Shown here: in pieces, positions 25,735 through 29,353 of the stretch
How positions within the stretch are numbered: the first letter of the stretch is position 1
How the letters are laid out: each line of letters begins with the position of its first letter
IMG/VR virus record: IMGVR_UViG_3300017527_000512
Location: 62,001-126,000 of that record
Source of the DNA: a virus
Length of the DNA stretch: 64,000 bases
Strand: one strand, 5' to 3'
Position numbers and translations under genes: made by a program
The notes under the pieces: generated by a model
The model's input: the letters and a program-made list of their open reading frames with translations, nothing else
Databases searched by the model: none
What the model was told of the DNA's origin: nothing

Positions 25735-25854
25735 GAAGAGATAGCTCAGTGGTAGAGCACGAAGCTCGTTATTTATCACATTACCGCAAGGTACGGAGAA
25801 TGACGATTATCAATTTTAATGACGTGGTCGTAGGTTCGAGTCCTACTCTCTTCG
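25735..25854 (+). ncRNA. tRNA/Y-RNA chimera 1 (permuted YrlA-like)
   Basis: 120 bases. It has a good acceptor (GAAGAGA/TCTCTTC), D-arm (GCTC/GAGC) and T-arm (GTAGG TTCGAGT CCTAC) but no normal anticodon arm. In its place is a Y-RNA-like arm: CGTTATT (25767) pairs with the end of GAATGACG (25798); an internal loop contains CACAT opposite CGGA; then TACC-GCAA-GGTA closes the end. ATTATC follows. The TACC/GGTA stem with CGGA and ACAT is shared with the RNAs at 25860 and 25992. The likely role is binding the Ro60 protein encoded just downstream. Confidence 0.75.
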
Positions 25855-25859
25855 ATTAT

Positions 25860-25988
25860 GCGAAGGTAGCTCAATTTAGTAGAGCGCCTGTATAAATTTC
25901 CTTTTTCGCTCACATTACTGCAAGGTACGTTGATTGAGGATTATCTACCAGGAACAGGATGTTGTAGGTTCGAGCCCTACCCTTCGCG
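25860..25988 (+). ncRNA. tRNA/Y-RNA chimera 2 (permuted YrlA-like)
   Basis: 129 bases. Acceptor GCGAAGG/CCTTCGC, D-arm GCTC/GAGC, anticodon stem CCTGT/ACAGG and T-arm GTAGG/CCTAC are all present. The anticodon loop is replaced by a 62-base insert holding the Y-like arm: CTCACAT, TACT-GCAA-GGTA, CG, then a GAGG helix and ATTATC. It shares the tetraloop-capped Ro-stem with the RNA at 25735. Five bases separate the two, so they are probably released by tRNA-type processing. No usable anticodon. Confidence 0.75.
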
Positions 25989-25991
25989 AAT

Positions 25992-26060
25992 AGTGGTACG
26001 GAGAAGAAGAGTTATCACATTTTTATTGTAACAATTACTCTTTTTCACTACATTACCACT
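25992..26060 (+). ncRNA. Free Y-RNA-like RNA
   Basis: AGTGGTA pairs with TACCACT at the base; an internal loop has CGGA on one side and ACTACAT on the other; then GAAGAAGAGT pairs with ACTCTTTTTC over 10 bp, with ATCAC in the apical loop. This lower stem/internal loop/upper stem layout, including a GAGTTATC segment, closely resembles animal Y RNAs from memory, whose lower stem binds Ro60. It starts three bases after the preceding RNA. Confidence 0.72.
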
Positions 26061-26064
26061 TTAC

Positions 26065-26100
26065 TTCTCGGTACGGAAGTAACTCCATATTACCGAAGAA
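26065..26100 (+). promoter_or_regulatory. Mini Ro-stem hairpin in the Ro60 leader
   Basis: TTCT-CGGTA pairs with TACCG-A-AGAA, with one bulged A; the loop begins CGGA and ends CATAT. These are the same GGTA/CGGA and CAT/TACC elements seen in the three upstream RNAs. It ends 17 bases before the Ro60 ATG and could let Ro60 bind and repress its own message. Confidence 0.55.
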
Positions 26101-26117
26101 CAAATAAGGAGAAAATA

Positions 26118-27906: not shown

Positions 27907-27922
27907 ATATGTTATGAATCAT

Positions 27923-27955
27923 TTGTGAGGTCGTAGGTTCGAGTTCTTCAACAGG
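27923..27955 (+). pseudogene. tRNA 3'-half remnant
   Basis: GTGAGGTCGTAGGTTCGAGT, followed by TCTTCA, copies the T-arm of the RNA at 25735 (GTGGTCGTAGGTTCGAGT) but lacks a matching 5' half. It is probably a relic of a duplicated tRNA-like gene. Confidence 0.5.
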
Positions 27956-27978
27956 TGACTCTTTTTATTACATTAAAT

Positions 27979-27988
27979 GTTATATAAT
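27979..27988 (+). promoter_or_regulatory. GTTATATAAT promoter-like motif
   Basis: GTTATATAAT, a variant of the recurrent box, 68 bases before the 28047 start. Confidence 0.4.
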
Positions 27989-28046
27989 TTATATATAATT
28001 TATATATATAATTCATATATTTATGATGATATATGAGGAGATTATT

Positions 28047-28622
28047 ATGAAGATTAGCATTCCTAGAATGATTTATAAAAGAAACAAGAAAATGCAGAAA
28101 CTAGTTGCAGCACGTACTTCAGAAGTAGGTATATTTTGGTTTTGGAAGAACGATATAATTGCAGAAGGCCGTCCTTGGTCCGAAGGAGAAGACTTTGGTA
28201 AATACAAGATTTATCCTGATGACCATTCTCGAGTGTGGAATTCTTATAAGAGAAAGGGTGTTCTTACCAAAGTGTATAACATTCCGGAGAAGGATCAAAA
28301 GGAGTATTTCTTATTAGAAAGAGGCAGAGTTGTATGCTTACCTAAAGCGGATAAGTATAAATTCATAGTTTATTTTGGTAGGAAACCTTCATCTGCAGAG
28401 AAGTCATTAATTCTGAAAGAATTTAATCTTCCTCTAGCTTCTACTAAGTTTGAGTATGATGATCACTACGATCGTAACAAACAATCTGCTATAGAAGATG
28501 GTATGCACGAGGGAGATGATTCCGATGATCTTTATTCAGAAGAATTGGATATTGCAGAATTACCTAGAATGGATGACATTGCTGATATGGGATCTATTGA
28601 TGATTCCGATGATTATAGTTAA
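28047..28622 (+). CDS. Unknown protein with acidic tail, in Ro60/RNA-ligase cluster
   Basis: 191 residues from ATG 28047, which has GAGGAG upstream; an earlier in-frame ATG at 28023 does not. The N terminus is basic (RMIYKRNKKMQKL), the middle is strand-rich with FWFWKNDII, and the last 45 residues are highly acidic (EGDDSDDLYSEELDIAEL). Eleven bases separate it from the RNA ligase gene. Function unknown; the acidic tail suggests binding to a basic partner. Confidence 0.75.
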   Translation: MKISIPRMIYKRNKKMQKLVAARTSEVGIFWFWKNDIIAEGRPWSEGEDFGKYKIYPDDHSRVWNSYKRKGVLTKVYNIPEKDQKEYFLLERGRVVCLPKADKYKFIVYFGRKPSSAEKSLILKEFNLPLASTKFEYDDHYDRNKQSAIEDGMHEGDDSDDLYSEELDIAELPRMDDIADMGSIDDSDDYS

Positions 28623-28633
28623 GGAGAGATTTT

Positions 28634-29353
28634 ATGAATTTTCCAAAAATGCAGTCTCCTTTTATCCGTGATATTTACCCAGATAAAAGGTATCTCTGTA
28701 CTTCAAAGATTGATGACAGTTTCAGATGGGTCTTTACTGATGAGTCCATTGCAGTAGATAAGATTGATGGGACTAATATCTACTTTGAAGTAGAAGATAA
28801 ATCTATCAAGCAGATTTATAACAAACATGCGGACCATACAGTAGATATATGGAAGAAGCCGGATATGAGAGTAGGAGAGGGTATTCTTCGTTCAATGATG
28901 AAGAAATATGTTCAGACTCCTGATAGGCTGAAACCTGGAATATATTGCGGCGAGCTTATTGGAGAATCTATTCAAGGTAATCCATATAAAGTAGATGGCC
29001 ATCTTTGGATCCCTTTTGATCGTATGAGGAATAACTACATTTTTAAATTCTGGTTTGATTTTGTAAAAACTTTAGAGGGCAGGTCCGACGAGGAAATATA
29101 TGAAGCTGTTAGCGACGTTTTTAAAGGTCTGTGGTCAATCTTTAAGAGAAATTTTAATAAGATGTCTCTCACAGATTCTCCAGTTACTGAGAGCACTAAA
29201 TTTGAAGGAATGGCAGCCGAAGGTATAGTCTTTTATCGTAAAGGAAAAGAAGGATATGGCCAGTGTGCTAAACTTCGTAGAGACATGTTCGAGTGGTTTA
29301 CGGGTGATGATCACCAAACCCACGAGTACACTCGGAAGAAGAGTAGGAGATAA
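28634..29353 (+). CDS. RNA ligase (ATP-dependent nucleotidyltransferase family)
   Basis: 239 residues. VDKIDGTNIYFE is motif I with the nucleotidyl Lys in KIDGTN; YCGELIGESI is motif III; AAEGIVFYR is motif IV; CAKLRRDMF is motif V. The size and lack of an OB domain fit small phage RNA ligases rather than DNA ligases. It joins RNA ends, for example to repair cut tRNAs. Its place after the Ro60/Y-RNA locus makes a linked RNA-repair or circularisation role attractive. Ribosome site AAGGAG. Confidence 0.85.
   Translation: MNFPKMQSPFIRDIYPDKRYLCTSKIDDSFRWVFTDESIAVDKIDGTNIYFEVEDKSIKQIYNKHADHTVDIWKKPDMRVGEGILRSMMKKYVQTPDRLKPGIYCGELIGESIQGNPYKVDGHLWIPFDRMRNNYIFKFWFDFVKTLEGRSDEEIYEAVSDVFKGLWSIFKRNFNKMSLTDSPVTESTKFEGMAAEGIVFYRKGKEGYGQCAKLRRDMFEWFTGDDHQTHEYTRKKSRR

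Follow-up and report, generated by a model that had tools for sequence, protein, structure and literature searches.

The Ro60 locus considered here lies in a 64-kb stretch (the window; positions 62,001 to 126,000) of the 164.5-kb viral record IMGVR_UViG_3300017527_000512. Two Y RNAs, whose parts follow one another in the order of a tRNA, are situated 130-383 nt upstream of the Ro60 gene, and two further stems lie between them and the gene. The features of this region are listed below, where R1 denotes a covariance model built from 32 tRNA-order units with the window excluded.

25735-25854, + strand: tRNA-order Y RNA 1, acceptor GAAGAGA/UCUCUUC; Rfam tRNA model 49.0 bits; R1 93.3 bits (E 1.7e-22)
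25860-25988, + strand: tRNA-order Y RNA 2, acceptor GCGAAGG/CCUUCGC; Rfam tRNA model 49.3 bits; R1 83.5 bits (E 5.8e-20)
25992-26060, + strand: Y RNA without a tRNA domain, in the ordinary open orientation (GGUACGGAG...ACAUUACC); fold z -4.6
26068-26096, + strand: mini Y stem in the Ro60 leader, candidate operator; fold -8.2 kcal/mol, z -2.05; third plus-strand GGTACGG
26118-27710, + strand: Ro60 (Rsr), 530 aa; TROVE domain PF05731 (E 9e-38), Ro60 vWA domain PF25045 (E 2e-59); phrog_850

Y RNAs in tRNA order upstream of Ro60

Bacterial Y RNAs are usually seen as permuted tRNA mimics at the far end of the Ro60 stem. Each of the two units in the window begins with a 7-nt acceptor strand, followed by UA, a D arm, a short 5' strand and the Ro60 3' strand (ACAUUACC / ACAUUACU), and runs on through GCAA, the Ro60 5' strand (GGUACG), UUAUC and a T arm to the second 7-nt acceptor strand. 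The anticodon-arm position of both units is occupied by a Ro60-type stem with a GCAA tetraloop as its cap. This bulged stem is present in both units by pairing and by its conserved motif, and would be bound by Ro60. GGTACGG occurs three times on the plus strand of the window, each time within 330 nt upstream of Ro60. The acceptor strands pair 7/7 within unit 1 and within unit 2. When the tandem is folded, the acceptor pair probabilities are 0.88-0.96 for unit 1 and 0.45-0.96 for unit 2, and unit 1 has a fold z of -2.8. CCA is not encoded in either unit.

The Rfam tRNA model fits both units by means of long anticodon-arm inserts, a 61-nt stretch in unit 1 and a 62-nt insert in unit 2. ARAGORN calls neither unit a tRNA, and a 7-nt anticodon loop on a 5-bp stem is absent from both. 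An earlier note on this DNA had placed Y-like RNAs, Ro60, a 191-residue acidic protein and an RNA ligase here; all four are present at the positions it gave, and its Y-like RNAs beside Ro60 stand, but their tRNA order had gone unnoticed.

The units resemble YrlA (RF02553; PDB 6CU1), which likewise adjoins Ro60 and combines tRNA D and T arms with a bulged Ro60-type stem and a UUAUC-like element between that stem and the T arm. The 5' and 3' ends of YrlA pair within the Ro60 stem (PMC8394870), and YrlA superposes on tRNA only through circular permutation (PMC11472068). The window units differ in that they end in acceptor strands and their Ro60 stem is capped by a loop, whereas YrlA is circularly permuted and ends in the Ro60 stem.

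The same stretch might be read as an ordinary YrlA tandem, if cleavage of the transcript within the GCAA loops released 25790-25932, which bridges the two units, as the functional RNA; its acceptor hairpin would then be capped, as it is in Salmonella YrlA. The Rfam YrlA model indeed matches 25800-25916, spanning both units, at 39.9 bits (below the gathering cut-off of 69), and a CUUCG/CGAAG hairpin is able to form 5 bp. However, this bridging hairpin reaches a probability of 0.03 in the tandem fold, and the bridging piece is no stabler than its shuffles (fold z 0.15). Both acceptors are fully paired within their own units, and the tandem would leave half units over on each side.

tRNA-order Y RNAs at other Ro60 loci

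Ro60 loci were compared at 171 places besides the window: nine named phages and the two first IMG/VR loci (L002-L012), a further 80 IMG/VR loci, and 80 bacterial or archaeal genomes. The distances, the counts and the chance expectation for ligases given below rest on this non-random sample, which is ranked by similarity to the window's Ro60. Units were selected by motif order only (D arm, Ro60 motif, UUAUC, T arm), the acceptor not being a criterion; the selection yielded 63 units in 55 of the 172 loci. Their 7-nt flanks pair 7/7 in 40 units, 6/7 in three and at 1-5 positions in the remaining 20, several of which are junctions between tandem canonical units. The distribution is bimodal, and flanks swapped at random between loci pair 7/7 in 1.9%.

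The Ro60 stem lies inside the unit in the 41 acceptor-paired units, with 4 bp plus usually 8-10 bp and a short capping loop. The pairing score of this Y stem is 14.5, compared with 9.9 +/- 1.6 for shuffles; Y-stem pairing played no part in the selection of units, while the 5' strand motif did. R1 separates the window units from the real tRNAs there, which score at most 47.3 bits. At R1 scores of at least 60 bits, and with the training loci counted, the class is present beside Ro60 at 13 of the 80 viral and 30 of the 80 genome loci, or about 43 of the 171 loci besides the window. One such unit belongs to Sorangium cellulosum So0157-2 (L146, 7010-7129), where Ro60 also has a candidate operator of the capped kind. 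In Rfam release 15, the tRNA-order units that were found carry the plain tRNA label.

Units in canonical YrlA order were identified at 59 other loci of Ro60, a count that favours the YrlA tandem for the window; yet many tRNA-order units elsewhere occur as single copies. With the folding evidence above, we regard the tandem as quite improbable. Still less credit is due to the proposal that the units are genuine tRNA genes whose long introns or sizeable anticodon inserts are spliced or decoded, which we consider very unlikely. The acceptance of the units by the Rfam tRNA model at 49 bits is in its favour, as is the ability of RNA ligases to rejoin cut tRNAs. But an anticodon loop of 7 nt cannot be read in the units, and the insert holds a Ro60 motif that is common to other stems upstream of Ro60. 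Across phyla, moreover, the insert is kept as a stem, usually of 8-10 + 4 bp, and such units adjoin Ro60 genes.

The two topologies have been exchanged repeatedly. In a tree of the Ro60 sequences from 97 loci, of a quick type with many forks open, 15 topology changes were counted, at least five of them forced by well-supported branches, against 32 with shuffled labels; topology is therefore heritable but has been switched repeatedly. Y RNAs upstream of Ro60, often within tRNA arrays, are likewise a feature of the Ro60 loci of mycobacteriophages and Streptomyces phages, and a Ro60/Y RNA locus has been suggested for Listeria phage CKA15 (PMC12282133). Among the 11 viral loci fetched first (nine named phages, two from IMG/VR), a tRNA-order unit was found in none and canonical units in six. 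Genome loci with tRNA-order units more often stand in tRNA arrays (at least three tRNAs in 16/30 versus 8/50, p 8e-4), a count dominated by related Myxococcota. We also note that the bacterial Ro60 loci L107, L119, L121, L124, L138, L154 and L158 sit in phage-like tRNA arrays of 19-37 tRNAs in ~12 kb. Viral contigs were also scanned for exact matches to the pattern of the window's capped stem; the seven hits appear from their flanks to lie in coding sequence, with no tRNA-like context, and were set aside.

The Ro60 gene, its leader and the genes downstream

The Ro60 of the window has an intact MIDAS motif in its vWA domain. Relatives occur in 348 phage records, the best with 40% identity. It scores 475 bits over its full length with the NCBIfam equivalog RNA-bind_Rsr, for which the cut-off is 900, and is accordingly a divergent homologue rather than that equivalog.

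Two stems occupy the space between the tRNA-order units and this gene. None of 200 shuffles is as stable as the stem at 25992-26060, and its motif, GGTACGG / ACATTACC, is common to other local stems. The mini Y stem at 26068-26096 ends 9 nt before the Shine-Dalgarno sequence of Ro60 (26106-26111). A minimal capped Ro60 motif, UU-GCCC-loop-GGGC-CG, was sought within 60 nt of start codons and is present at 37 of 168 Ro60 loci; among other genes that have a Shine-Dalgarno sequence, 16 of 970 carry it (odds ratio 17, p 9e-21), and shuffled leaders do so in 1.4%. Its position peaks sharply at -20 to -1 (33 loci), on the ribosome-binding site. It recurs in 16 of 95 Ro60 clusters (60% identity), in which the arms vary and stay complementary over 4-8 bp. 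The enrichment of the capped motif at the Ro60 start, from which we infer autoregulation, suggests feedback repression of Ro60 translation. The open form of the leader stem was dismissed as a common feature, being present at 5 of 168 Ro60 loci. Since the leader stem of the window has this form, for which there is no general enrichment, its interpretation as an operator is weaker, and the stem at 26068-26096 is a candidate Ro60 operator by its likeness to the capped operators at other Ro60 genes. A capped Ro60-type hairpin was also observed in a bacterial tRNA array (L124, 7990-8050), on the ribosome-binding site of a gene that by eye resembles an HNH endonuclease (184 aa); this gene might be regulated by Ro60 as well.

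Downstream of Ro60, the window contains the following genes.

27748-27906, + strand: two tRNA-Arg genes (tcg, tct; ARAGORN), starting at 27748 and 27831, inside the surrounding tRNA array
28047-28622, + strand: orphan protein of 191 aa with an acidic tail (19 D/E in the last 50 residues)
28634-29353, + strand: predicted divergent RNA ligase of the nucleotidyltransferase superfamily, 239 aa; phrog_14301 (E 1e-4) and phrog_548 (E 2e-4), both weak
31791-32975, + strand: tRNA nucleotidyltransferase of the CCA-adding type; PF01743, PF12627, PF01966; phrog_2244 (E 2e-117)

The 239-aa protein has no credible match in Pfam, NCBIfam or PDB sequences; it matches neither PF09414 nor TIGR02307 and stays below every curated cut-off. 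Motifs I, III, IV and V of RNA ligases can be recognized as K43-IDGTN, GELIG, EGIVFY and KLRR, and they align with the small ligases of other Ro60 phages. These motifs support its identification as a divergent nucleotidyltransferase-type RNA ligase of predicted activity, so that the family assignment of the earlier note is upheld. DRB0094/Rnl2-type RNA ligases have the same motifs, but the window protein is very divergent from them and the N-terminal OB domain is absent. For the 191-aa protein, searches of Pfam, PHROGs, NCBIfam, PADLOC, phages and viral contigs all came back empty. By direct sequence search no relative of either protein was detected in other phages or viral contigs, and AlphaFold models of the two, made without an alignment, have a pLDDT of 39 and are too poor to use.

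The earlier note had proposed that all four elements, the Y RNAs and Ro60 as well as the two downstream proteins, belong to one candidate module that could repair, circularise or protect tRNAs cut by host defences. The four elements do lie on one strand inside 3.6 kb, and RNA repair is documented in jumbo phages, where ATP-dependent RNA ligases co-occurring with TROVE proteins were noted earlier (PMC7824862). A gene of the RNA ligase family is found somewhere in 17 of 50 other Ro60 viral records (18 of 51 with our own), and at one viral locus (L072, 6992-9692) a DRB0094-type RNA ligase of 369 aa starts 4 bp past the Ro60 stop; no obvious Y RNA was seen upstream of that Ro60. In the rsr-yrlBA-rtcBA operon of Salmonella, which serves RNA repair (PMC7790460), an RNA ligase gene is likewise found close to Ro60 and to Y RNAs that resemble tRNAs; the window differs in lacking RtcB and having an unrelated nucleotidyltransferase-type ligase 0.9 kb downstream. 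RtcB was found in 3 of the 51 Ro60 viral records.

Linkage, however, speaks against such a module. A ligase-family gene lies within 5 kb of Ro60 in 3 of the 50 other viral records, L072 among them, which is close to the ~1.2 expected by chance (our own arithmetic), and the ligase was accordingly discarded as a general companion of Ro60. Ro60 in other phages mostly stands without a nearby ligase, largely the pattern that the earlier note had named as contradicting its proposal. Direct searches gave no phage relative for either of the two downstream proteins, tRNAs and unrelated small open reading frames (ORFs) lie between and around the genes, and Pfam AAA_33 (PF13671), which we take as the marker of an end-healing polynucleotide kinase, is not found in the 164.5-kb record. 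A search of this record for Pfam RNA_ligase found no match. The link between Ro60 and the nearby ligase is weak. A shared repair function of the two is possible, but a conserved unit is not supported, and we consider the four-part module unlikely. What is new at this locus is the tRNA-ordered Y RNAs and not the four-part island.

The locus, with its RNAs and genes all on one strand, is contained in a tRNA array at 20.3-31.7 kb of the window, with 13 tRNAs (ARAGORN); the gene for the CCA-adding enzyme begins 2.4 kb past the ligase-like gene. A probable extra tRNA with a CAU loop is located at 25611-25680 (Rfam 24.1 bits, below the cut-off; no ARAGORN call), and ARAGORN calls a tRNA with a four-letter anticodon (cttc) at 37956-38030, possibly a frameshift suppressor or a mis-call. 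At 30473-31032 a phage tmRNA gene is interrupted in its T loop by a 236-nt intron (30783-31018), whose core is group I-like as judged by eye. The uncut sequence is missed by both ARAGORN and Rfam; once the flanks are joined, ARAGORN calls a tmRNA with a tag ending in EETQELMAA. A short HNH-like ORF of 76 aa (34013-34243) is, by eye, probably a truncated HNH endonuclease.

Proposed function and meaning

We think it fairly probable that the Ro60 of this phage works with two Y RNAs in tRNA order, a circular permutation of YrlA, and that maturation, docking and leader control proceed as proposed here. The analysis itself shows how the units are laid out and paired, that they belong to a class found beside Ro60 genes, and that topology has switched repeatedly. 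RNase P and the tRNA 3' enzymes would generate the ends of the units, with the host or the phage enzyme encoded at 31791 then supplying CCA; that enzyme could complete tRNA 3' ends as well. Ro60 would grip the capped stem, and the tRNA-shaped body could dock on tRNA-handling partners, for example PNPase or tRNA enzymes. The resulting particle of Ro60 and tRNA mimic may sort, protect or degrade damaged tRNAs or other RNAs during infection, at a time when the phage operates with tRNAs of its own. Free Ro60 would stop its own translation through Y-like leader stems, at 26068-26096 here and by the capped motif elsewhere. For comparison, PNPase is reported to be a partner to which YrlA presents its tRNA-like body (PMC8394870). 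YrlA is also reported to be left uncut by an anticodon nuclease and has been proposed as a competitive inhibitor (PMC7790460); the Y RNAs may also act as decoys for anticodon nucleases.

Several points weigh against this proposal. The outer Y stem of unit 2 is weaker (8/10 pairs), and without constraints this unit folds with different arms. By design, the D-arm and T-arm search patterns favour tRNA-like units. Just 6 of the 43 tRNA-order units have an encoded CCA, so that full maturation as a tRNA is less certain. The leader stem of the window is open rather than capped and stands 9 nt upstream of the Shine-Dalgarno sequence. Finally, we infer maturation, binding, docking partner and role from known biology.

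A broader reading, in which tRNA-order Y RNAs are widespread and so far undescribed (judged from Rfam and the literature consulted), appears to us evenly balanced. In this broader reading, the anticodon arm of a tRNA gene has become a stem for binding Ro60, the units have been permuted repeatedly to and from YrlA, and Ro60 regulates itself through Y-mimic hairpins in its mRNA, of which the leader stem of the window is one form.

The unpermuted form with true acceptor ends occurs at roughly one in four of the Ro60 loci sampled, which explains why such units have been annotated as tRNAs. As far as we know, the leader motif would be the first evidence that a bacterial Ro60 is under feedback control. 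The acceptor-ended form predicts that these Y RNAs pass through the maturation pathway of tRNAs, and it makes the question of the partner on which the tRNA mimic docks directly testable.
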